The notes under the pieces were generated by a model that was given only the letters and a program-made list of their open reading frames with translations, had not been told where the DNA came from and did no database searches. A DNA stretch of 64,000 bases. It comes from Candidatus Bathyarchaeota archaeon (GTDB lineage Archaea; Thermoproteota; Bathyarchaeia; Bathyarchaeales; Bathycorpusculaceae). This document shows, piece by piece, positions 3,104-15,685 of the stretch (positions within the stretch are counted from its first letter, which is position 1; each line of letters opens with the position of its first letter). Location: assembly GCA_018396705.1 (NCBI GenBank), contig JAGTQZ010000004.1:248001-312000 (forward strand). The letters are read 5' to 3'. Position numbers and translations under genes: made by a program.

Positions 3104-3301
3104 ATGAAGATTACCGCTCTCAAAGAACATAAGTGCTTCTGTTGTGGTGGAACCATTGTGAAGGGAGATGAATGTTTTGTATTCATCGTCAACCCTGAAA
3201 ATCCAAATAAAAGTGAATTTGACGTCATTTATACTTGTATAAAGTGTGCCGAAGAAGAGGCTTGCCGAAGGAGGATTAGACAGAAAGGCGTATCAGTTTA
3301 G
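3104..3301 (+). CDS. Small zinc-binding-type protein (65 aa)
   Basis: A 65-residue protein with a CFCCGG motif at residues 11-16 and a CIKC pair near residue 46, spaced like a small zinc ribbon. The middle is a beta-rich stretch (ECFVFIVNP) and the C-terminus is basic. I do not recognise a named family. The ATG at 3104 follows GAGGATGAACT, which offers a weak Shine-Dalgarno. Its stop overlaps the stop of the convergent Hsp20-like gene by four bases. A zinc or nucleic-acid-binding role is inferred only from the cysteine pairs. Confidence 0.7.
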   Translation: MKITALKEHKCFCCGGTIVKGDECFVFIVNPENPNKSEFDVIYTCIKCAEEEACRRRIRQKGVSV

Positions 3302-3765
3302 TTTCTGTAGTTAATTGTTGTTTTTATCTTTGGGATTTCAACCTCTAAAGCTTCATTGTTGTTGCATCGCATAATCATGTTTTCAACTTGTAATTCTTCA
3401 ACGGGGAGATCAACCTTCCAGCACATGTTCTCCACACATATTTGCAAGCCCTCGTCAGCTTTGTTAACAGTTATTCTATGGCTCTTGCAGCGGCATTGCA
3501 TTAAAACCTTAATGTAATTTTCATCTTCAAAAACATCTATCAATGGTTCTTCAATGTGGGGAAGCGGGATGAAATGCTTAACTGATGGGCCACTTTCAAA
3601 TTTTTCCTCAAACACATATTTTCTCTTCAAAAGCTTTTCAATAGGTTCCAGTGGGTTTTCTTTGCCAAGGTCTTCCTCCTCTTTGAGGCTTTTCACTAGT
3701 TTTTTAGCTAAAACTTTGCAGAAGATGTCTATATTTCTTAAAGCCTCATCAAAATCATCGCTCAT
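3298..3765 (-). CDS. Hsp20/alpha-crystallin-like protein
   Basis: A 155-residue protein. The N-terminal ~70 residues are charged and helical. The C-terminal half reads as an alpha-crystallin-type beta sandwich: a PLIDVFEDENYIKVLMQ strand pair, then a segment ending in EVEIPKI, like the final strand of archaeal Hsp20 and GvpH proteins. It contains several cysteines (CRCKSH, CVENMC), unusual for Hsp20. A chaperone role is inferred. It lies 175 bases downstream of the AbrB-PhoU gene on the same strand and is convergent with the small zinc protein. Confidence 0.65.
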   Translation of the reverse strand: MSDDFDEALRNIDIFCKVLAKKLVKSLKEEEDLGKENPLEPIEKLLKRKYVFEEKFESGPSVKHFIPLPHIEEPLIDVFEDENYIKVLMQCRCKSHRITVNKADEGLQICVENMCWKVDLPVEELQVENMIMRCNNNEALEVEIPKIKTTINYRN

Positions 3766-3940
3766 GGAGCTTCCCTAAATAAAGTATTTACCTAATCCTA
3801 TTTAACTTTGTTTGTTTTAAGTTTAACTGAAGACTAGTTTAGCTTTAGAGAAACTTTTGAGGCAGAGGTCAAGTGCTTGTTGCTTTCTATTCTTGCGCCT
3901 GCGATGGAATAGTCGTTGACTTAGGTAACCATTGGAAAGC

Positions 3941-5014
3941 TTACTTCTTTCCTATGGTTAAGGGCAAAGTTCTAAAATGTTTCACTGCCCGAACAACGTT
4001 GCCAATGAACTTGTTAGGATCCTCTAAGGCTCTGTTTACGGCTATTTCAGCAATTGTTGCGCCTTTATCAGCGATTTTGCTCAAACATGAAATAATCGAC
4101 CTTATATAGGGAATCTCCGGGGCCTCCCGCATAAGCCTGTTTGAGTCGACTTCAAGTACTTTAAGCATTTCTAAAAGTTGATTTGCTACTTTCAAGTCGC
4201 GCGTGAAAACGCATTCAACTGACTTTTGAAAGATTGTTTGAGCCATGTCACTTATATGAAATATTTGGTCAACAATGTTTTCTTGTAGCATGTTTCTGTA
4301 AATCTCCATTTCTAGGACTTCCTTCGCTAAATCTTCGGAGTAATCTGCCACCAACTCTAGGTACTGCAATATAAGCCTTGCTGCCGGTATGAAAATGACA
4401 TCTGACATGCCGACTTCTTCGGCTATAACCGGCTTGGCTTGAGCCAAAAGGAGCAGTCGCACCGCTAAATAGTATATTTTATCTGCTTCATCTTCTCTGG
4501 CTATGGCTTCTTCTACAAGACTATATTTCTTTTCTTTGAAGCCCTGCATGGCTTCAGAAAGTATCGTTGATGCTATTAGGGCGAGTCGTCGGATGAGCAT
4601 GTCAAGTTTGAATTTCGTGGTGTCTATGGAACATTGGAGTAGGATGCTTTTTGGAGTTTCCTCTAGGATACCGAGACCTATGAGCTTTTGAACTATCCTT
4701 CGCACTTCGTCCACATGGTTCTTTTCTATACGGTTTGCGGAGATCACGCGAATAACATCACGTCCAAGAATGTAGCTTCCAACAATTATCCTCTCGAGCA
4801 TGCCGGGTTCGTCGCATGCATCAGCATTAACCACATACTCGTCGGCTTCTTCCCGTTGAGCCACATGTCTCGGCATTATTTTTAGTGAACCGTCCCTCTC
4901 AGGAAGTATGAATAGTATGTCTTTTGGTTTTATACCCTGTTCCTTAACCCAGTCGTTTGGTAGGGAAACGGTCATTGTTGAATGCCCCACTCTTTGAACT
5001 TTTCTAATTTCCAA
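3941..5014 (-). CDS. AbrB-PhoU fusion regulator
   Basis: A 357-residue protein. Residues 1-45 form a SpoVT/AbrB swapped-hairpin DNA-binding domain (RKVQRVGHSTMTVSLPNDWV). The rest is two PhoU-like helical repeats (about 120-350) with the acidic, helix-rich pattern of PhoU metal-binding bundles. Such fusions are common in archaea and are usually called phosphate-uptake regulators, though no pst genes are nearby. The gene is divergent from the RHH-GcvH-like gene across 126 bases. A second member of the same architecture is at 52241-53332. Domains are clear; the regulon is unknown. Confidence 0.88.
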   Translation of the reverse strand: MEIRKVQRVGHSTMTVSLPNDWVKEQGIKPKDILFILPERDGSLKIMPRHVAQREEADEYVVNADACDEPGMLERIIVGSYILGRDVIRVISANRIEKNHVDEVRRIVQKLIGLGILEETPKSILLQCSIDTTKFKLDMLIRRLALIASTILSEAMQGFKEKKYSLVEEAIAREDEADKIYYLAVRLLLLAQAKPVIAEEVGMSDVIFIPAARLILQYLELVADYSEDLAKEVLEMEIYRNMLQENIVDQIFHISDMAQTIFQKSVECVFTRDLKVANQLLEMLKVLEVDSNRLMREAPEIPYIRSIISCLSKIADKGATIAEIAVNRALEDPNKFIGNVVRAVKHFRTLPLTIGKK

Positions 5015-5140
5015 GTTATTCCCTCTATTTACGGTATTTATTTTTGCGAATTTATTTATTCTATATTTTCTATTTACGCTAGATATATATTTTTCGCTTT
5101 ATTCTATATATCACGCAGATGTGAAGGAGGTTGATAATAA
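5015..5140. promoter_or_regulatory. Divergent promoter region with two direct repeats
   Basis: This very AT-rich spacer separates the AbrB-PhoU gene (leftward) from the RHH-GcvH-like gene (rightward). TTTATTCTATAT occurs exactly at 5055-5066 and 5098-5109, and TCTATTTACG exactly at 5024-5033 and 5069-5078, so two different words repeat with almost the same period (43 and 45 bases). The right copy of the first word overlaps a TATA-like element for the rightward gene. A strong Shine-Dalgarno AAGGAGG at 5124-5130 sets the ATG at 5141. The repeats are candidate operators for either flanking DNA-binding protein. Confidence 0.6.
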
Positions 5141-5731
5141 ATGTCTGAATGGAAAACCGTAAGCATAAGACAAGAACTAATAAAGGAAATCGAGAGAATC
5201 CTTAGAACAGGACGCTACCGAAGCGTTTCAGAGTTCGTCTCAGAAGCCATAAGACTCCGCTTAGAGGAGCTCATGCGGGCTGAAGGAATTCCAGCCGCCA
5301 AACGTGAAGAGCTCCTGGCAATACCGGAACAACTATTATACACGCCAAAACATACATGGGCACAAATAACACCTGAAGGAAACATCCGTGTGGGTGTTTC
5401 AGACTACGCTCAGAGACACCTTAAAGGCATAGCAAATATTATGACTGAACCTGTGGGGAAAGAAATTGCCAAAATGGAACCCTTCGGTGTGGCTGAAACC
5501 TGGATGTTTATGTTTGACTTATATGCGCCAGTAAGTGGCAAGATTGTTAAGGTTAATGAAAAATTGAAGGATAAGCCATACTTAGTTAACGAGGATCCAT
5601 ACGGTGAAGGCTGGATCATTGAAATTAAACCCAAAAACTCGCTTACGCTTGAAGAAGAACTCAAGAGTCTTCTAAGCTCTAGAGAATACAACAAGTGGGT
5701 TAGCAAACTTGAGGGAAGATTACGTGAATAA
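5141..5731 (+). CDS. Ribbon-helix-helix / GcvH-like fusion lacking the lipoyl lysine
   Basis: A 196-residue protein. Residues 5-48 are a CopG-type ribbon-helix-helix (WKTVSIRQELIKEIERIL, then YRSVSEFVSEAIRLRLEEL). Residues ~65-175 are a full glycine-cleavage-H/lipoyl domain: HTWA, VRVGVSDYAQ-like (IRVGVSDYAQ), DLYAPVSG, LVNEDPYGEGW. In GcvH the lipoylated lysine lies in ESVKAVSD; here the aligned stretch is ETWMFMFD, with Met122 (codon 5504-5506) replacing the lysine. The protein therefore cannot be lipoylated there and is unlikely to be a glycine-cleavage carrier. A DNA-binding sensor using a retired carrier domain is my inference. The start is fixed by AAGGAGG ten bases upstream. Confidence 0.88.
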   Translation: MSEWKTVSIRQELIKEIERILRTGRYRSVSEFVSEAIRLRLEELMRAEGIPAAKREELLAIPEQLLYTPKHTWAQITPEGNIRVGVSDYAQRHLKGIANIMTEPVGKEIAKMEPFGVAETWMFMFDLYAPVSGKIVKVNEKLKDKPYLVNEDPYGEGWIIEIKPKNSLTLEEELKSLLSSREYNKWVSKLEGRLRE

Positions 5732-5859
5732 AATCCCTCCAATTCCCCCTCTTTTTCTGTGTCAAAATTTTAAGCTACATTTATGCCAGGCTTGATTTGA
5801 ATGCCTTAATATATTGGAATCAAACTTTAAATTAGCTTCTAAGAAGGCTGATAGCCTTG

Positions 5860-7578
5860 ATGGAGAAATCTTCACAACAAGAAATTAGAAAATTACCACC
5901 TTGCAGAGCAGCATGTCCAGCGCATGTCAATGTTCAAGCCTATGTAGCCCTTATTCAAAGAGGCAAATTCAAAGAGGCCGTTGAAGTCATAAGGCGTGAC
6001 ATGCCCTTTCCAGCAATCTGCGGAAGGGTTTGCTTCAGCCCATGTGAAGATGCTTGTGCACGAGTTAACCTTGACCAAGCAGTAGCCATACGCGCCTTGA
6101 AAAGACTTGTAGCTGACATAGAACGCGAACAAGGAAGGGTGATCGCCGAACCAGTTCCCAAAAAATACAGTGAAAAGGTCGCCATAGTCGGCGCTGGTCC
6201 AGCGGGTTTAGCCGCAGCCTATGAACTCGCAAAGTTGGGCTATTATGTCACTGTTTTTGAGAGGATGTCTGAGCCTGGTGGCATGATGCGTCACTGCATA
6301 CCAGACTTTCGCCTCGAAAAATTTGTTGTGGCAAACGAAATTGCTTACATAAAAGATATAGGTGTCGAAATCAAAACTGGAGTGGAATTCGGCAAAGACA
6401 TAACCATTGAAAGTCTGAAAAGGAACGGGTATAAGGCTATTTTTTTAGCTATTGGGACACAGCTTGGGATGAAGTTAAACGTGCCCGGCGAAGACTTAGA
6501 AGGTGTAATAAATGCCGTGGACTTTTTGAGGGCCATTGCCCTCGGAAAGGAAATAGTCGTAGGCGAAAGGGTGGCAGTCATAGGCGGAGGCAACACGGCC
6601 ATCGACGCTGCAAGAACGGCCAAAAAGCTAGGCGCAAAAGAGGTTATGATTCTTTATAGGCGATCTCGCGAGGAGATGCCGGCGCTTCCTCATGAAGTGG
6701 AGTTGGCTGAAAAAGATGGAATAAAATTCTACTTCTTAGTAGCGCCTAAACAGATTATAGGCGAGAATGGAAAGGTTAAGGCTGTTGAATGTTTGAGGAT
6801 GCGCTTGGGCGAGCCTGACGAAAGTGGAAGGAGACGTCCTATTCCCATAGCCTTCTCGGAACACCGATATGAGGTAGACATGGTCGTCCCAGCACTGGGT
6901 CAAATAGTTGAAACATCAGTTTTGCCGCCTGAGCTTTTAAGCAAAGATAAACGTGGTCCACCGTTGCAAGTTGACCCGTTAACATTGGAAACAAATATTC
7001 CTGGAGTTTTTGCTGGCGGGGACGTTGCTACAGGCCCAGCAAGCATCATTGAGGCTGTGGGCGCTGGGAAACGCGCAGCCGTTTCCATACATCGTTATCT
7101 ACGGGGTGAAGACTTGCGAAAAAATAGGGATGAAAAGAAAATCGAGGAGACAACATGGGTTAAAGATTGGCGTCTGCTCGATAAGAAGGAACGCAGATAC
7201 TACGCCCCAATAGAGAAGCCTCACCTAAGCTTTGAAGAGGCAAAATTGTATCTTGAAAAATTAAAGCGCCAAGCAAGATTTGAGGCGTATCGTTGTCTAG
7301 GATGCGGGCCGTGTGCCGAGTGTCTTGCGGGCATGGAGCTTTGTGAGGGTGACAAGGCTGTTGTCGACGAGGGCAAGTGTGTAGGCTGTAACGTTTGTGC
7401 CGTTGTTTGTCCAGTAGGAGCTGTCAAAAAGAACGTGAAAGGCGTAGCCCAAGTAAATGAGGAGCTTTGCAAGGGCTGCGGGCTATGCGCGGCGCGCTGC
7501 CCAGAAAGAGCTATATCCATGCAGAAGCTTTCCAACGAGCAGATTCTAAGCATGGTTTTAACAGCCTTGGAGAGGTGA
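5860..7578 (+). CDS. GltD-like FAD/NAD(P) oxidoreductase with C-terminal 2x[4Fe-4S]
   Basis: About 572 residues. The N-terminal module has GltD-type Fe-S cysteines (Cys15, 19, 54, 58, 62, 66). An FAD motif VAIVGAGPAG is near 109, an NAD(P) motif VAVIGGGNTA near 243, and the second FAD motif GVFAGGDVATGP near 390. The C-terminus adds a bacterial-type ferredoxin (CVGCNVCAVVCP, CKGCGLCAARCP). The family oxidises NAD(P)H and feeds Fe-S clusters. As first gene of the Hdr-Mvh operon it probably links NAD(P)H or ferredoxin to Hdr rather than making glutamate. ATG 5860 is preferred; a TTG at 5857 is also possible. The MvhD-HTH gene starts six bases after its stop. Confidence 0.88.
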   Translation: MEKSSQQEIRKLPPCRAACPAHVNVQAYVALIQRGKFKEAVEVIRRDMPFPAICGRVCFSPCEDACARVNLDQAVAIRALKRLVADIEREQGRVIAEPVPKKYSEKVAIVGAGPAGLAAAYELAKLGYYVTVFERMSEPGGMMRHCIPDFRLEKFVVANEIAYIKDIGVEIKTGVEFGKDITIESLKRNGYKAIFLAIGTQLGMKLNVPGEDLEGVINAVDFLRAIALGKEIVVGERVAVIGGGNTAIDAARTAKKLGAKEVMILYRRSREEMPALPHEVELAEKDGIKFYFLVAPKQIIGENGKVKAVECLRMRLGEPDESGRRRPIPIAFSEHRYEVDMVVPALGQIVETSVLPPELLSKDKRGPPLQVDPLTLETNIPGVFAGGDVATGPASIIEAVGAGKRAAVSIHRYLRGEDLRKNRDEKKIEETTWVKDWRLLDKKERRYYAPIEKPHLSFEEAKLYLEKLKRQARFEAYRCLGCGPCAECLAGMELCEGDKAVVDEGKCVGCNVCAVVCPVGAVKKNVKGVAQVNEELCKGCGLCAARCPERAISMQKLSNEQILSMVLTALER

Positions 7579-7584
7579 TGATGA

Positions 7585-8334
7585 ATGAACCCTAACTCCA
7601 ATCCACCTAAAATTGTTTGTTTCATGTGCAACTGGGCTTTCTGTGAGGAGGAAATGCGAATACCCTACAACGTTAACATCATAAGAGTCATGTGTGTCGG
7701 AAGAATAGATCCAGCGCTTGTTCTGGAGACTTTTGCTAATGGAGCTGAAGGCGTAATGCTTGTGGGATGTAAGCCTCCCGACTGCCACTTTGTTGATGGA
7801 AACCTTCATGCGAAGCTAGCGGTTAAACTATTGAGTAAGCTTTTGTCTCTGGCTGGGCTGGAACCTGAAAGGTTGAAGCTTCTTCTTGTCTCACCATTGG
7901 AGGATAAAGACTTCAGCTATTATGCTAAAGAATTCTCTGAAGAAGTTTGGAAGCTTGGGAGCTCACCACTGAACAAGGAGGAAATTGCAGCCAATCTTAC
8001 GGCGGCGAAAGAGGCTGCTTCAGCCTTTAGACTGCGCGTTTTACTAGGAAGGGAGGAGGAGCTCACGGATTTTGCCAACGCTTATGGCGAGAAAATATTG
8101 AAGGGAGAGTTTGACGCTTTAATGGACGACGTTATCAAGGCGGAGTTCATCCGCTACAAAATTCACTACTTGACGAGAATTAAACCCCGCTCTGTTAAGG
8201 AGCTTGCCCAAATCCTCGGATTAAAGCCATCCACTGTTTTGAGGCATATAACAAACATGAGGCGTAAGGGCATGATCGCCCTTGACAGGGTTGAAGGTTA
8301 CACACCCTTATACAAGGCTTTGGAGGTGCGTTGA
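7585..8334 (+). CDS. MvhD domain fused to a winged helix-turn-helix
   Basis: A 249-residue protein. Residues 1-130 are an MvhD/FlpD domain with Cys12, 15, 20, Cys37 (RVMCVGRIDP) and Cys62/67 (VGCKPPDCH); these are the positions that hold the [2Fe-2S] cluster in MvhD. A helical linker follows, then an ArsR/MarR-like winged helix at ~190-249 (SVKELAQILGLKPSTVLRHI, a recognition helix, then a basic wing). GAGGTGA at 7572-7578 supports ATG 7585. The gene lies inside the Hdr-Mvh operon, directly before hdrA, and a normal MvhD is encoded at 11366. A redox-responsive autoregulator is an inference. Confidence 0.85.
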   Translation: MNPNSNPPKIVCFMCNWAFCEEEMRIPYNVNIIRVMCVGRIDPALVLETFANGAEGVMLVGCKPPDCHFVDGNLHAKLAVKLLSKLLSLAGLEPERLKLLLVSPLEDKDFSYYAKEFSEEVWKLGSSPLNKEEIAANLTAAKEAASAFRLRVLLGREEELTDFANAYGEKILKGEFDALMDDVIKAEFIRYKIHYLTRIKPRSVKELAQILGLKPSTVLRHITNMRRKGMIALDRVEGYTPLYKALEVR

Positions 8335-8336
8335 AA

Positions 8337-11300
8337 ATGGTGAATGAAAAGGTTGGTGCAGTTCTTGTTGTCGGCGGCGGCGTAGCTGGGATACAAGCTG
8401 CTCTGGACTTAGCTGATTCAGGCTTTAAAGTGTACATGGTGGATCAGTCGCCGAGCATTGGTGGCGTTATGGCTCAGCTTGACAAAACTTTTCCGACAAA
8501 TGATTGTTCCATGTGTATTTTGGCGCCTAAGCTTGTGGCTGCTGGAAGGCACCCTAACATTTCGCTTATTACGAACAGCGAAGTACTTGGCTTAAGAGGT
8601 GAAGCTGGAAATTTCGAAGTAAAAATTCGAAAGAGAAGCCGCTACATAAATGAGAATAAATGCAACGGCTGCGGACTATGCGCACAAAAATGTCCGGTTG
8701 AAGCCATAGACACCTACAACAAGGGATTAACGGACAGAAGCGCCGTCTATGTTGAATTTCCACAAGCGGTTCCACTACGATATAAGATAGACCGCGAAAA
8801 ATGCATAGGCTGCAGAACATGCCAAGAGGTTTGTAAGGCAAATGCCGTCGAATACGACCAAAAGGACAGCGAAATAACCCTGAAAGTCGGCGCAGTGATC
8901 TTGGCGCCAGGCTTTGAACCCTTCGACGCAAGACTCAAAAGCGAGTATGGTTATGGCAGGTATGCAAACGTCGTCACAAGCATAGAGTTTGAACGCATAC
9001 TGAGTGCTTCCGGTCCTTATGGCGGAATTGTTTTAAGGCCCTCGGATGGCGAGATTCCGCGTAGACTTGCCTTCGTCCAGTGTGTGGGTTCTCGTGATGC
9101 CCAGCTTGGAAACCTTTATTGTTCGGCTGCTTGCTGCATGTACAGCATTAAGGAGGCAATAATAGCTAAAGAACATGTTCCAACAAAGTTAGACTGTACA
9201 ATATTCTATATGGACATAAGGGCTTACGGCAAGGAATTTGACGCTTATTATAAGCGCGCTCAAGAGGAGTATGGCATACGCTTTGTGCGTTCGAGGGTTG
9301 CAAGCATAACCGAGGATCCTGCAACAGGAAACCTATTCGTCCACTATGTAGGCGAGGATGAAACTCCGAGGATTGAAGAATTCGACATGATTGTGCTTTC
9401 CACGGGAATGCAGTCTCCCAAAAACGTGGAGAAATTGGCTGAAGCTTTGGGAATAAAACTTAACAAGTACCGGTTCTGTGAAACAAACACATTTACCCCA
9501 TTGGAAACTTCAAAGCCCGGGGTTTTCGTTTGCGGAGCTTTCAGCTCACCCAAAGACATTCCGGAAAGCGTTGCCCAAGCAAGCGGCGCAGCGGCAAAAG
9601 CCATGGCGATAATCGCTACGGAAAGGGGCAAGCTTGTCGCCGTTAAGGAGTATCCTCCTGAACGGGACGTGAGCCAAGAAGAACCACGCATAGGCGTTTT
9701 TATTTGCCACTGCGGCATAAACATCGGCGGCATAGTTCGGGTTCCAGAGGTTGTGGAATACGCTAAAACTCTTCCAAATGTTGTCTATGCTGAAGACAAC
9801 CTTTACACCTGCTCGGATGACACCCAAAAGCGGATCAAGGAGAAGATTAAGGAGTACAACCTGAACCGTGTTGTGGTAGCTTCATGCACGCCCAGAACAC
9901 ATGAGCCGCTTTTCCGCGAAACTGTCCGCGAGGCAGGCTTAAATCCATATCTATTCGAGATGGCTAACATCCGGGACCAGTGCAGCTGGGTGCACATGCA
10001 TGAGCCAGACAAGGCGACGGAGAAAGCCAAAGACCTTGTCCGCTCGGTTGTTGCTAAGGCTAGACTACTTAAGCCTCTGAAGAACCCTACGGTAAACGTT
10101 ACACCGGTAGCTCTTGTTATAGGTGGCGGCGTAGCCGGAATGACTGCAGCATTGGAGTTGGCAAATCAAGGGTTTGAAATTCACCTTGTTGAACGCGAGA
10201 AAGAGCTTGGTGGACACTTGCGGAAAATCTATTACTTGTTGGAGGGTGAAGATCCGCAGGAGCACTTGCGGAGACTTGTTAGGGCTGTTATGGAAAACAA
10301 GCTTATTCACGTTTACCTAGGCGCTGAGGTTGTTGATGTAAGCGGGTTCGTAGGCAACTTCAAATCAAGGATTAGGCTAGGCAGCGGTGAAGAAAAACAG
10401 ATCGAGCACGGTGTGGTTATCGTTGCCACGGGTGCTGTTGAATACAAGCCCAAAGAATACTTGTATGGCCTGGATCCCCGCGTCTTAACCCAACATGAGT
10501 TGGAGGAGAAAATAGCCAAAGGCGAGTTTAACGCTAAAAAAGTAGTTATGATCCAATGTGTAGGCGCAAGAAACGAGGAACACCCCAACTGTGCACGGAT
10601 ATGCTGTGGACAAGCCATCAAAAACGCTTTGAAAATCAAAGAGTTAAACCCTGACGCTGAAGTTTATGTCCTCTACAAGGATGTTAGGAGCTACGGATTC
10701 AAAGAGGAGTATTACCGGGAAGCCACTGCCAAAGGCGTGCTCTTCATAAACTATTCGGATGAGAGAAAACCAAAAGTATCTAATGATGGTGGCGAACTGA
10801 AAGTTTCCTTCTATGAACCGGTGTTAAAGCAGGAAATCCAAATCGAACCGGACATTGTTGTTTTAAGTGTTGCAACCATTCCGAACCCAGATAACAAGCG
10901 CGTAGCCGAAATGCTCAAAGTACCATTGACAAAGGACGGCTTCTTCCTAGAAGCTCACATGAAACTTCGCCCAGTTGACTTCCAGACGGACGGTGTTTTC
11001 CTATGCGGAATGGCACACTCACCAAAATATATTGAAGAAAGCATTTCTCAAGCGTGTGCTGCAGCGGCACGGGCAGCTACCATATTGTCAAAGAAAGCTC
11101 TTGAAATGGAAGGAATCGTGGCAAATGTGAATGAAGATTTATGTAGTGGATGTAGAATCTGTGAATTTCTATGTCCCTACGGAGCGATTGAAATGCTAGA
11201 AAAGGAAGAAAAGGTAGTCGCACACGTGATTGAAGCTCTTTGTAAGGGCTGCGGCGCATGTGGCACCGCGTGCCCAACAAAGGCAATAGTTCTCGGTCAC

Positions 11301-11369
11301 TTTACAACGGAGGAAATCCTCGCCCAGGTTAGGGCAGTCCTGCGAGAGGTGGAGGTGGCGGCTAAATGA
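8337..11369 (+). CDS. hdrA: Double-length HdrA (two FAD modules, four ferredoxin-type clusters)
   Basis: About 1010 residues. The N-terminal half has an FAD motif (VVGGGVAGIQAALDLA), two ferredoxin motifs (CNGCGLCAQKCP, CIGCRTCQEVCK) and the HdrA landmarks QCVGSRD and YCSAACCM. The second half starts near residue 455 with the HdrA-type N-terminal cluster region (ICHCGINIGGIV, VVASCTPRTHEPLF). It then has a second FAD motif (VIGGGVAGMTAALELA) and two more clusters (CSGCRICEFLCP, CKGCGACGTACP). HdrA performs flavin-based electron bifurcation; having two flavins makes this an unusually complex relay. ATG 8337 lies eight bases after GGAGGTG; TTG 8331 fits less well. The stop overlaps mvhD by four bases. 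Confidence 0.95.
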   Translation: MVNEKVGAVLVVGGGVAGIQAALDLADSGFKVYMVDQSPSIGGVMAQLDKTFPTNDCSMCILAPKLVAAGRHPNISLITNSEVLGLRGEAGNFEVKIRKRSRYINENKCNGCGLCAQKCPVEAIDTYNKGLTDRSAVYVEFPQAVPLRYKIDREKCIGCRTCQEVCKANAVEYDQKDSEITLKVGAVILAPGFEPFDARLKSEYGYGRYANVVTSIEFERILSASGPYGGIVLRPSDGEIPRRLAFVQCVGSRDAQLGNLYCSAACCMYSIKEAIIAKEHVPTKLDCTIFYMDIRAYGKEFDAYYKRAQEEYGIRFVRSRVASITEDPATGNLFVHYVGEDETPRIEEFDMIVLSTGMQSPKNVEKLAEALGIKLNKYRFCETNTFTPLETSKPGVFVCGAFSSPKDIPESVAQASGAAAKAMAIIATERGKLVAVKEYPPERDVSQEEPRIGVFICHCGINIGGIVRVPEVVEYAKTLPNVVYAEDNLYTCSDDTQKRIKEKIKEYNLNRVVVASCTPRTHEPLFRETVREAGLNPYLFEMANIRDQCSWVHMHEPDKATEKAKDLVRSVVAKARLLKPLKNPTVNVTPVALVIGGGVAGMTAALELANQGFEIHLVEREKELGGHLRKIYYLLEGEDPQEHLRRLVRAVMENKLIHVYLGAEVVDVSGFVGNFKSRIRLGSGEEKQIEHGVVIVATGAVEYKPKEYLYGLDPRVLTQHELEEKIAKGEFNAKKVVMIQCVGARNEEHPNCARICCGQAIKNALKIKELNPDAEVYVLYKDVRSYGFKEEYYREATAKGVLFINYSDERKPKVSNDGGELKVSFYEPVLKQEIQIEPDIVVLSVATIPNPDNKRVAEMLKVPLTKDGFFLEAHMKLRPVDFQTDGVFLCGMAHSPKYIEESISQACAAAARAATILSKKALEMEGIVANVNEDLCSGCRICEFLCPYGAIEMLEKEEKVVAHVIEALCKGCGACGTACPTKAIVLGHFTTEEILAQVRAVLREVEVAAK

Positions 11370-11803
11370 GCGAAGTCCAAAAGGATTTCGAACCGAAAAT
11401 TGTCGGTTTCCTCTGCAACTGGTGTTCTTATGCAGGCGCGGACCTAGCTGGCGTAAGTCGAATTCAGTATCCTCCGAACATCCGTATTATCCGTGTCATG
11501 TGCAGCGGTAGAGTCGATCCAGCGTTTATCCTTGAAGCCTTAAAAAACGGCGCCGATGGTGTTCTGGTGGCTGGTTGCCACCTACCGTCCGATTGTCACT
11601 ATCTTAGTGGTAATTTTAAGGCTTTGCGAAGGGTAACGCTATTAAAGAAGGTGCTTAAAGATTTTGGGATAGAACCCGAACGTGTGCGGTTGGAGTGGGT
11701 CTCCGCTAGTGAGGGAGACAAATTCGCGGCCGTAGTTCGGGACATGGTTGAACAAATCAAGAAGCTTGGTCCAAACCCGTTGAAAATGGAGGCGAAGAAA
11801 TGA
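11366..11803 (+). CDS. mvhD: Mvh hydrogenase delta subunit
   Basis: A 145-residue free-standing MvhD with the expected cysteines (FLCNWC, RVMCSGRVDP, AGCHLPSDCHY). In methanogens MvhD holds a [2Fe-2S] cluster and carries electrons from hydrogenase MvhAG to HdrA. It overlaps both neighbours by four bases (ATGA), which implies coupled translation within the hdrA-mvhD-hdrC-hdrB-mvhG-mvhA series. Compared with the fusion at 7585 it lacks the HTH extension. Confidence 0.95.
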   Translation: MSEVQKDFEPKIVGFLCNWCSYAGADLAGVSRIQYPPNIRIIRVMCSGRVDPAFILEALKNGADGVLVAGCHLPSDCHYLSGNFKALRRVTLLKKVLKDFGIEPERVRLEWVSASEGDKFAAVVRDMVEQIKKLGPNPLKMEAKK

Positions 11804-12366
11804 GCGAAAAAAGTGTGGTTCGCGAATATACACCACCAGTGATTAAAGCTGAAGAGCTTGATCCCAAATTCAAGTATAAAATGAGCAGGATGCATGGCGC
11901 AGAAAAAATTATGGCGTGTTTCCAGTGTGGCACGTGCACAGCTGACTGCCCCATTGCCAGATTCAGTGAATTTTATCGGCCGCGTCGCATAGCCCGCATG
12001 GTTCAGCTAGGCTTGAAGGATAGGCTTCTGTTAGATAAGGCTTTGTGGCTTTGCTCCTCATGCTTCACATGTGTAGATCATTGCCCTCAAGGCGTGGAAA
12101 TAGCTGGCATAGTTCGCGTTCTACGGAATATGGCAGTAGCAGAAAAGAATATTCTGCCACTTGTTTATAAGGAGTTGGCAACGAATTTGATGAAGAGCGG
12201 CTTTGTCTATGAAATTCCAGAATCAAGACTTCAAAAGCGTGTTGAGCAGGGATTGCCGCCGTTGCCCAAGCCTAACGTAAGCGAGGTTATGAAAATTTTC
12301 GAGGTTACTGGTTCCGCAAGCTTGATTGAAAAGGTTCAAACCATTGCAAGGGTGGAGAGTAAATGA
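11800..12366 (+). CDS. hdrC: Heterodisulfide reductase subunit C (second copy)
   Basis: A 188-residue HdrC with two [4Fe-4S] motifs, CFQCGTCTADCP near residue 46 and CSSCFTCVDHCP near residue 87. It has a longer N-terminal extension than the copy at 1599. It should link the double HdrA to the HdrB encoded next. Both ends overlap neighbouring genes by four bases. Confidence 0.95.
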   Translation: MSEKSVVREYTPPVIKAEELDPKFKYKMSRMHGAEKIMACFQCGTCTADCPIARFSEFYRPRRIARMVQLGLKDRLLLDKALWLCSSCFTCVDHCPQGVEIAGIVRVLRNMAVAEKNILPLVYKELATNLMKSGFVYEIPESRLQKRVEQGLPPLPKPNVSEVMKIFEVTGSASLIEKVQTIARVESK

Positions 12367-13241
12367 GCAACCCCAAATATTTGCTGTTTCCGGGTTGTGT
12401 GATCCCGTATAGGCTTTCAAGCTACGAGATTTCAGCAAGAAAAGTGCTTGCAAAACTTGGCGTTGAAATTGTGGAGATGCCCGAATACAACTGTTGCGGC
12501 TATCCCATGGATGTTATAAACCATGATTTAATGTTGACTTTGGCTGCGAGAAACCTTTGCATAGCTGAGAAAGCAGGCTTACCGATAATGACGCTTTGCA
12601 ATGGCTGCTTCTGTAGTCTAAACGAAACCAACAAACTATTGAAGGAGGACAAGAAGCTTCGGGAAAAAATTAACGGATACTTGAAAGAAATAGGTATGGA
12701 ATTTAAAGGCACAACTGAGGTTAAGCATATACTCTACGTGCTTTCTGAGGACGTTGGTTTCGAGAAAATAAAGAATTCTGTCGTTAAACCCTTAACTGGT
12801 ATTCGTGTAGCCCAGCACAGTGGATGCCACGTTTTAAGACCCCGCAGATATGTAGGGCGAGACGACCCTGAAAATCCAACAACTCTCAAAGAGCTGATTA
12901 GACTGACTGGGGCTGAATGCTTAGACTATATGGATGAAACTGAATGCTGTGGAAACCCGGTTATAGGCGTTAACGAAGACGTACCTTTCCAGATGGCTAA
13001 GGAGAAGCTTGAACATGTACGGGCGGTTGGTGCCCAAGCGCTTATAACTATCTGCCCCTTCTGCCACATCATGTTCGACCTAAACCAGCCCAGAATTGAA
13101 AGAGCCTTTAACGAAAAATTCAATCTGCCAGTCCTCCATTACCCGCAGCTTCTAGGGTTAGCCATGGGCTTTTCGCCGGATGAGCTAGCCCTAGGCGAGC
13201 TTAGAGTCAAGCCTACCGAATTGTTAGGCTTAATCAAGTAG
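12363..13241 (+). CDS. hdrB: Heterodisulfide reductase subunit B (second copy)
   Basis: A 292-residue HdrB with both CCG domains complete: FPGCV with YNCCGYP and LCNGC in the first, and SGCH, ECCGNP and CPFC in the second. These should bind two non-cubane clusters for disulfide reduction. It is closely similar in layout to the copy at 2102, and both include the EFKGTxEVKH segment, so the two sets are probably a within-lineage duplication. The gene is followed nine bases later by mvhG. Confidence 0.95.
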   Translation: MSNPKYLLFPGCVIPYRLSSYEISARKVLAKLGVEIVEMPEYNCCGYPMDVINHDLMLTLAARNLCIAEKAGLPIMTLCNGCFCSLNETNKLLKEDKKLREKINGYLKEIGMEFKGTTEVKHILYVLSEDVGFEKIKNSVVKPLTGIRVAQHSGCHVLRPRRYVGRDDPENPTTLKELIRLTGAECLDYMDETECCGNPVIGVNEDVPFQMAKEKLEHVRAVGAQALITICPFCHIMFDLNQPRIERAFNEKFNLPVLHYPQLLGLAMGFSPDELALGELRVKPTELLGLIK

Positions 13242-13250
13242 GTGAGAGAT

Positions 13251-14234
13251 ATGGCAAAACAGAAGTTAAAGTTCGCCTTTTACTGGGCGGCAAGCTGTGG
13301 TGGATGTGAAATCGCTGTTCTAGACATAAACGAGAAAATCTTGGACGTGGTGCAAATTGCCGATATAGTATTCTGGCCTGTTGCCATAGACATCAAATAT
13401 AAGGATGTGGAAAGTATGCCCGACAAGTACATTGACGTGTGCTTCTTTAACGGTGGAATCCGTAACAGCGAACAAGAACACATGGCAAAGCTTCTTAGAC
13501 AAAAATCAAAGATTCTAGTTGCCTATGGCGCATGTGCTCACCTCGGTGGCGTGCCTGGGCTGGCCAACCTCCATAATAAGAAGGAAATCTTCGAAAAAGT
13601 CTATACTCAAACCTTTTCAACGCATAATCCAAATGGGGTTTTTCCCCAGCCTAAAGTGCAAGTGAAAGAAGGTGTGCTGGAAATCCCAGAGTTTTACGAC
13701 ACTGTGCGAACTCTTGACCAGACGGTGAACGTTGACTATTATGTTCCAGGTTGTCCCCCAGCAGTTGAACGAACAATATTCGCATTGGAAGCTATAGCCA
13801 AAGGAGACCTGCCGCCTAAAGGCTCGGTACTAGCACCGTTAAAGTCTGTGTGCGATGATTGCCCCAAAAAGAAGGAAAATAAGAAAATCTCACGTATATA
13901 CCGCGTCTACGAAAAGATTCCGGATCCGGAAAGATGCCTATTGGAACAGGGAATAATTTGCATGGGACCTGCTACAAGAGGTGGATGTGGCGCCAGATGC
14001 TTGAAGGCTGATATGCCTTGCACTGGTTGCGGTGGGCCTTGTCCAAACGCTCCGGAGCAAGGTGCTGCCATGATTAGCGCTTTAGCGTCCATTCTTGGCC
14101 TAGAAGAGGAGAAGGAGAAGTACACAGAGGAAGAGGTTGAAAAGCTGATTGACCAGATAAAAGATCCCGTTGGAACCTTCTACATGTATGCTTTACCAGC
14201 CTCAATTTTGAGGAGGAAGGTGATCCGCGAATGA
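13251..14234 (+). CDS. mvhG: [NiFe] hydrogenase small subunit, Mvh type
   Basis: About 327 residues. The proximal-cluster motif SCGGCEIAVLD is near residue 14, followed by PGCPP near 170. A C-terminal Cys-rich region (CDDCPKK, then CGARC, CTGCGGPCPNAP) would bind the remaining clusters. Group 3c small subunits pass electrons from the NiFe site to MvhD. No Tat signal is present, so the enzyme is cytoplasmic. ATG 13251 is chosen because GGTGAG at 13241-13246 is a good Shine-Dalgarno for it; a GTG at 13242 would overlap that site. The stop overlaps mvhA by four bases. Confidence 0.94.
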   Translation: MAKQKLKFAFYWAASCGGCEIAVLDINEKILDVVQIADIVFWPVAIDIKYKDVESMPDKYIDVCFFNGGIRNSEQEHMAKLLRQKSKILVAYGACAHLGGVPGLANLHNKKEIFEKVYTQTFSTHNPNGVFPQPKVQVKEGVLEIPEFYDTVRTLDQTVNVDYYVPGCPPAVERTIFALEAIAKGDLPPKGSVLAPLKSVCDDCPKKKENKKISRIYRVYEKIPDPERCLLEQGIICMGPATRGGCGARCLKADMPCTGCGGPCPNAPEQGAAMISALASILGLEEEKEKYTEEEVEKLIDQIKDPVGTFYMYALPASILRRKVIRE

Positions 14235-15685
14235 AGGAAATTATCATAGACCCAATCACGAGACTTGAAGGTCATGGCAAAATAGCCATATTCCTAAACG
14301 ATGCGGGCGAAGTTGAAAACGCCTATTTGCAGATTCCAGAGCTCCGCGGCTTCGAAAAGTTCTGCATTGGACGCAAAGCCGAAGATTTGCCTATCATAAC
14401 GCCACGTATATGCGGTGTGTGTCCTGTTGCACACCACATGGCTAGCGCCAAAGCATTGGATGCTGCTTTCAATGTTGAACCACCTTCCGCTGCCAAGAAA
14501 CTAAGGGAACTCATGTATTGTGGCTACTATATTTATGACCACACTTTGCACTTCTATTATCTAGGTGGACCAGACTTCGTTGTCGGACCGGATGCACCAC
14601 CAGAGAAACGCAACATTTTAGGCGTTATTGAGAAGGCTGGATTAGAGATTGCTAAAGAAGTTATTAAGCATAGGGCTTACGGCCAACGGATAACTGAACT
14701 CATTGGTGGAAAGGCAACACACCCTGTCTGCGGACTGCCGGGTGGGGTTTCTAAACCTCTAAACGAAGAGAATAGACAAGAAATTGAGAAGATGGTGAAA
14801 TCCTCTATCGAGTTTGCAAAGCTTTCGTTGAAACTTCTCCATAATATTGTCTTGGAAAACAGCAAATACGTGGAGTTGATTAAAAGCGACGTTTACGCGC
14901 TGCGCACCTATTACATGGGCTTGGTGGACGAACACAACAAGGTGAACTTTTACGACGGTAAAATCCGCGTCGTAGATCCCAACGGCAAAGAGTTCGTGAA
15001 GTTTGAGGCTAAAAACTATTTAGAGCATATTGTTGAGCATGTGGAGCCATGGACTTATGTGAAGCTTCCATACCTTAAGAAGGTTGGATGGAAAGGCTTT
15101 GTGGACGGACCTGAAAGTGGCATCTACCGTGTCGGCCCCCTTGGAAGACTCAATGCTGCAGACGGCATGGCAACACCCCTAGCCCAAGCAGAATATGAAC
15201 GAATGTACAAGACTTTGGGCGGCAAGCCAGTGCACTCCACTCTGGCTTATCACTGGGCTAGGCTTATTGAGCTTCTGTACGCAGCTGAGAGGGCTTTAGA
15301 GCTTGTTAAGGATCCAGAGATTACAAGTGCTAATGTGAGGAGCAAGCCTGGCAAACCCGGCGAGGGCGTTGGCGTGGTGGAAGCATGCAGGGGCACTTTG
15401 ATTCACCACTATGTTTTGGACGAGAATGCGCTGGTTAAGGACGTCAACTTGATTGTGGCCACAGTTAACAATGCACCCTCAATTAATATGTCTGTGCGGA
15501 ATGCTGCCAAGGGTTTGATTCACGGAGGTAAAGTTGACCAAGGCTTGCTTAACATGGTGGAGATGGCTTTTAGGGCTTACGATCCATGTTTCGGTTGCGC
15601 AACCCACTTCGCTTTTGGACAAATGCCACTAACCATAGAAATCTACGACAGAGAAGGAAAGCTCATCAAAAAAGTGCAAAGATAA
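14231..15685 (+). CDS. mvhA: [NiFe] hydrogenase large subunit, Mvh type
   Basis: A 484-residue large subunit. The nickel ligands are in the L1 motif RICGVCPVAHH (near residue 60) and the L2 motif DPCFGCATH near residue 450. About 25 residues follow the L2 histidine, consistent with a C-terminal peptide removed after metal insertion. A maturation protease gene lies just downstream. The role is H2 oxidation or evolution in the soluble Mvh-Hdr complex. Confidence 0.95.
   Translation: MKEIIIDPITRLEGHGKIAIFLNDAGEVENAYLQIPELRGFEKFCIGRKAEDLPIITPRICGVCPVAHHMASAKALDAAFNVEPPSAAKKLRELMYCGYYIYDHTLHFYYLGGPDFVVGPDAPPEKRNILGVIEKAGLEIAKEVIKHRAYGQRITELIGGKATHPVCGLPGGVSKPLNEENRQEIEKMVKSSIEFAKLSLKLLHNIVLENSKYVELIKSDVYALRTYYMGLVDEHNKVNFYDGKIRVVDPNGKEFVKFEAKNYLEHIVEHVEPWTYVKLPYLKKVGWKGFVDGPESGIYRVGPLGRLNAADGMATPLAQAEYERMYKTLGGKPVHSTLAYHWARLIELLYAAERALELVKDPEITSANVRSKPGKPGEGVGVVEACRGTLIHHYVLDENALVKDVNLIVATVNNAPSINMSVRNAAKGLIHGGKVDQGLLNMVEMAFRAYDPCFGCATHFAFGQMPLTIEIYDREGKLIKKVQR

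Follow-up and report, generated by a model that had tools for sequence, protein, structure and literature searches.

The nickel-responsive regulator NikR carries an N-terminal ribbon-helix-helix (RHH) domain followed by a metal-binding, ACT-like C-terminus. The glycine-cleavage H-protein (GcvH, PF01597) is a lipoyl carrier and, in solved complexes, LplA, lipoyl synthase and T-protein contact it at its hairpin tip. LbpA, a GcvH homologue adjoining the hdr genes of sHdr systems, has a strictly conserved lysine and, in most of its members, some archaeal LbpAs excepted, two conserved cysteines (PMC6067878). The sHdrR and SoxR proteins of Hyphomicrobium, local regulators of an Hdr-type operon, are ArsR-type repressors that sense sulfane sulfur via two cysteines (PMC12423496). 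No description of an RHH or CopG domain joined to GcvH was found in the open-access literature.

The window analysed here is a stretch of 64,000 nucleotides from a Candidatus Bathyarchaeota archaeon, and its features are collected in Table 1. An open reading frame beginning with ATG, with the same coordinates and translation as in an earlier sequence-only reading, encodes a protein, RHH-GcvH, that recalls each of these systems in part. Like NikR it pairs a probable N-terminal RHH with a sensor-like C-terminal domain, this latter being GcvH rather than ACT-like. Like LbpA it is a GcvH homologue adjoining hdr genes, but it has neither the lysine nor a single cysteine in its translation, and its operon is of the HdrABC-MvhADG type; an LbpA-like reading was rejected on these three counts, and the link to sulfur oxidation drawn in the sequence-only reading is not supported. 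With sHdrR and SoxR it shares a position beside an Hdr-type operon, and TauE exporters lie near both, but it has no cysteine.

Table 1. Features of the RHH-GcvH locus, in window coordinates.
Feature	Position	Strand	Basis
Small protein of 155 aa, in synteny with the module	3298-3765	-	No Pfam family; synteny
Candidate second operator ahead of the small-protein gene	3776-3793		13/18 match, chance level in the window
MazE/AbrB-PhoU gene, divergent conserved partner	3941-5014	-	PhoU 1.4e-14, MazE_antitoxin 3e-6; synteny; orthologue essentially restricted to fusion genomes
Putative conserved operator, tandem/palindromic TATTTAnnGTATTTAnnn	5026-5043		Sole exact 16-mer match in its own genome
TATA-box-like promoter element of RHH-GcvH, with conserved GATATATATTTTTCG	5082-5096	+	Consensus only
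Shine-Dalgarno AAGGAGG of the RHH-GcvH gene	5124-5130	+	
RHH-GcvH fusion gene, 196 aa	5141-5731	+	ORF; about 45-50 family members
Ribbon-helix-helix domain, residues 6-43	5156-5269	+	RHH_1 profile, NikR PDB profile match, helix topology
GcvH fold of a lipoyl carrier, lipoyl lysine absent, residues 65-188	5333-5704	+	GCV_H profile, structure matches
Hairpin tip ETWMFMF (119-125)	5495-5515	+	Met122 codon 5504-5506 at lipoyl-lysine position; alignment, model
GltD-like oxidoreductase (FAD, 4Fe-4S domains), opening the downstream operon	5857-7578	+	Synteny
MvhD/FlpD domain with C-terminal winged-HTH-like segment	7585-8334	+	
Genes taken from family knowledge to be HdrA, MvhD, HdrC, HdrB	8331-13241	+	ORFs; conserved order
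Genes taken from family knowledge to be hydrogenase subunits MvhG, MvhA	13242-15685	+	ORFs; conserved order

The fusion of an RHH to a near-complete GcvH domain, as previously proposed, is borne out by domain matches, by an AlphaFold model (a monomer, mean pLDDT 82.9) and by dozens of relatives. The Pfam GCV_H profile matches the C-terminal part at 108 bits, where 22.2 are required, with an E-value of 3.3e-31, and the model superimposes on solved H-proteins with Z scores of about 20-22 and rmsd values of 1.3-2 over about 125 residues; for 1htp the Z score is 22.2 and the rmsd 1.4, with 128 residues aligned. The solved complexes 3a7a, 8ugo and 3a8i are also among the structure matches. Over residues 61-190 the identity to solved H-proteins is about 28-39%, and E119, D126, H71, W73 and the NEDPY...GW motif are retained. 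The GcvH fold is thus confirmed both by the model and by these matches. The protein nevertheless scores 103.4 bits against the cut-off of 115.85 set for the NCBIfam gcvH equivalog (TIGR00527), although a looser GcvH model accepts it.

The difference from GcvH lies, apart from the added RHH, at the hairpin tip, where ETWM(122)FMFD aligns over the ESVKAVSD of stand-alone GcvHs. In the model, strands 114-120 and 124-128 flank residues 121-123, the site of the lipoyl lysine in H-protein. Alignment of 40 fusions shows Met (28), Trp (8), Pro (3) or Leu (1) at position 122 and Lys in none, always behind a Trp121 that is itself invariant (40/40), with a nearly invariant Phe123 to follow; the tip is hydrophobic. 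The window protein has no substitute lysine at the tip (117-VAETWMFMFDLY-128), and Lys124 is present in only two of 40 relatives. The loss of the lipoyl lysine that the sequence-only reading reported from one protein therefore holds for the family: its homologues have not mostly kept the lysine, nor, as far as their sequences show, has a neighbouring one taken its place. Lipoylation at the customary position is not open to RHH-GcvH. Chance is excluded as an explanation of both the fusion and the lysine loss, since each is conserved across dozens of species, in proteins as little as about 40% identical. The suggestion that the fold is kept for another use is likewise supported.

Matches to the N-terminal domain are of lower significance. 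RHH_1 matches the window protein weakly (residues 6-43, E-value 0.0047, 17.3 bits against a Pfam cut-off of 20.5) and 19 of 40 family members, the best with an E-value of 4.3e-6, and NikR is the top PDB match of an N-terminal profile (E-value 0.0074). Of the beta-alpha-alpha topology of RHH proteins (MetJ/Arc/CopG), whose dimers place a beta-ribbon in the major groove, AlphaFold predicts the two helices, 11-23 and 29-47, in a monomer model that cannot resolve the ribbon; a fold search with the isolated N-terminal model, again a monomer in which the ribbon is not resolvable, gave no significant match. Residues of the ribbon and helix B (W4, T6, R10, S28, S30 and E31) are strongly conserved in the family.

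Among 201 related genomes the full-length matches have identities of between 97% and about 40%. About 45-50 fusions were found, all in one order of Bathyarchaeia, that of the window, where they fall in families f1, f6, f7 and f9; such counts overstate the evidence because related genomes are not independent. In a scan of 84,980 species the fusions were confined to Bathyarchaeota, with ordinary GcvH alone elsewhere, and a phylum-wide search agreed. A 'fusion' from Endomicrobia (L115) was rejected as an ordinary lysine-bearing GcvH. Several genomes contain tandem fusion pairs, the upstream copy having ETWWFTYD or a longer tip. A maximum-likelihood tree, in which all 62 stand-alone GcvHs keep the lysine, separates lysine-less from lysine-bearing proteins by a branch with 100/100 support. 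Two lysine-less GcvH-like proteins, L151:5169-5663 and L144:238-723, a pair with ETWMF and ETWNF, lack the RHH and lie away from the hdr locus. They group with the fusions on long branches and, to go by this placement, which is unsure, may derive from fusions by loss of the RHH.

The fusion gene usually heads a GltD-MvhD-HdrA-MvhD-HdrC-HdrB-MvhGA operon and nearly always diverges from one specific AbrB-PhoU-like gene, synteny of the module being seen in 30-odd contigs. Orthologues of this PhoU-like protein (at least 43% identity) occur only in fusion genomes, the exception being a contig broken at the fusion's expected site; genomes without a fusion have only distant paralogues, with about 22-31% identity over most of the length. 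MvhA is present in 74 of 122 genomes without the fusion, and the Hdr-Mvh complex therefore does not need it. Some f9 genomes have a different downstream operon, which starts with TauE/SafE, followed in places by what appears from sequence to be a NuoEF/Hox-like hydrogenase set, while the PhoU neighbour and the operator described below are kept. This exchange would be better fitted by a regulator travelling with its own switch than by a subunit of the Hdr complex.

Several further observations concern the neighbourhood. TauE/SafE (PF01925) lies directly downstream of RHH-GcvH in four f9 contigs (L067:4131-5111, L068:10638-11642, L071:10667-11626 and L072:9112-9879), and a protein of 124-133 residues with no Pfam match often follows it in f9 genomes. 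In the window, the regulator pair stands between two Hdr-Mvh gene sets of the same direction, the upstream one at 1-2977, an arrangement conserved in close relatives (L052, L054-L058). The 155-residue small protein holds several cysteines; a by-eye assignment of it to the HSP20-like proteins was rejected, no Pfam family supporting it. The first MvhD has an HTH_24 match above the cut-off (8.8e-6), with weak HTH matches in several orthologues, and is a second putative DNA-binding protein of the operon.

Between the divergent genes, about 92-115 bp before the ATG of RHH-GcvH, lies the element TATTTAtaGTATTTACTA, a spacing that holds for the most part across 26 representatives. In many genomes it contains the palindrome ATAGTA-TT-TACTAT. 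The best 18-mer match reaches at least 14/18 in 20 of the 26, compared with 5% of dinucleotide shuffles, and at least 16/18 in nine, compared with none of 1560 shuffles. The 16-mer TATTTAYRRTATTTAY is matched exactly ten times across 15 whole genomes, nine times at this locus (eight before the fusion, one before the small gene), and G095, G114, G007 and G127 each have a single exact TAGTATTTACTA, located here. In the window, 11 bp separate the element from the start of the PhoU-like gene; on the RHH-GcvH side it precedes the TATA-like element. Where the fusion is displaced (G136), the operator element has decayed, a point against the reading of the locus preferred below. The predicted operator falls inside the region, 5015-5140, that the sequence-only reading had named for DNA binding, and its conservation supports the regulatory role envisaged there beside the Hdr-Mvh operon.

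A whole-genome regulon search allowing one mismatch added sites at no more than roughly the frequency of a reversed-pattern control, and a longer promoter pattern, probably mis-specified, had no match in the window's own genome. Exact TAGTATTTACTA in G102, G111 and G117 was rejected as a regulon site; it lies at an unrelated gene shared by close relatives. A copy of the operator just before the start of the small-protein gene is clear in L058, L060 and L083.

A carrier without its lysine, a predicted DNA-binding domain and a conserved switch of its own at the operon together make RHH-GcvH probably a regulator. That it binds the operator, in which direction it regulates and that it acts as a sensor we infer, and on balance we lean towards RHH-GcvH being the one-component transcription factor of the locus. 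An RHH dimer would bind TATTTAtaGTATTTACTA, which lies between the AbrB-PhoU gene and the promoter of RHH-GcvH, and a single switch would co-ordinate the PhoU-like gene with the RHH-GcvH/hdr-mvh operon. For the PhoU-like gene, repression is the natural reading because the element hugs its start; for the operon, with the element upstream of the TATA-like element, the effect may be activation or repression. The GcvH part would be a pseudo-carrier, its lysine replaced by a bulky residue behind the invariant Trp with the fold kept, and the hairpin tip, at which lipoyl-handling enzymes dock on H-protein, would now dock a partner or read an effector and in this way tune DNA binding. A serious rival, though on the unlikely side, has the divergent AbrB-PhoU protein reading the operator and RHH-GcvH acting as co-regulator or modulator, two regulators on one switch. 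MazE/AbrB is itself a DNA-binding fold, recognised here through the MazE_antitoxin match, the orthologue is confined to fusion genomes as described, and in the genomes checked the operator stands 10-18 bp ahead of the PhoU-like gene, close against the start codon in nearly every genome. Yet one genome (G118) has lost the PhoU-like orthologue, retaining only paralogues of 28-29% identity, and keeps the palindrome ACAGTATTTACTGT before its fusion pair; it is for this reason that RHH-GcvH is favoured as the binder, and autoregulation is in any case usual for RHH proteins.

What the GcvH domain would contribute is a separate matter. Since the tip stands at the enzyme-docking place of H-protein, the best guess by analogy is that it docks a partner. 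Somewhat improbably, the domain could instead be purely structural, serving oligomerisation or the spacing of RHH dimers without sensing: the fold is preserved as a whole, the hydrophobic tip resembles a protein-protein interface, and the protein has no cysteine and no obvious ligand signature, but Trp121 and Phe123 (ranks 8 and 21 of 196 in conservation) and the kept H71, E119 and D126 exceed the needs of a passive spacer. It is rather doubtful that the domain reads the glycine-cleavage/lipoate system, for instance as a pseudo-substrate on which LplA, lipoyl synthase, GcvT or a DLD-like enzyme docks, as the retained H-protein fold might suggest. The lipoate ligase family is present in all 30 genomes searched and is to that extent uninformative, while GcvP (GDC-P) is commoner in fusion genomes (29/41) than in others of the order (41/122), a statistic confounded by relatedness; against this, 12 of the 41 have no detectable GcvP, including the window's own genome at 96.7% completeness, and no gcv or lipoate genes are linked at the fusion locus. 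The glycine-system sensing proposed in the sequence-only reading is accordingly a weak case. That the protein is still a carrier via another residue, or a decaying relic, is very improbable despite the near-complete fold, since neither a conserved lysine, at the tip or close to it, nor any cysteine is present, and decay is excluded by strong conservation across the whole order. In the preferred reading, with RHH-GcvH as regulator, a more far-reaching and tentative proposal, which we would put well short of probable, is that a single conversion within one archaeal order made a lipoyl carrier the sensor domain of a one-component transcription factor, its cofactor lysine exchanged for an invariant aromatic/hydrophobic tip; it would report a lipoate- or C1-handling partner or the Hdr complex, and so switch the electron-bifurcating Hdr-hydrogenase operon.

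As to the genomic context of lipoate and glycine, three genomes of the window's genus have the P protein of glycine decarboxylase, and the window's own genome has a lysine-bearing GcvH beside a CoA-disulfide-reductase-like gene (C6:43439-43795).

As a regulator architecture RHH-GcvH is real and conserved, and has apparently gone undescribed; its function we infer. An RHH one-component regulator with a sensor-like domain is already known in NikR; GcvH in the part of that domain is new. Acceptance by a loose GcvH model makes the protein an annotation trap, in that pipelines may count glycine cleavage or lipoylation in genomes without GcvP. One-component regulators mostly recruit domains that bind small molecules. 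If the proposed role is true, a swinging-arm carrier domain deprived of its arm and built into a regulator would represent a sensor module of a new kind, and it would offer a handle on how Bathyarchaeia control their Hdr-hydrogenase complexes, which are beyond the reach of genetics today.
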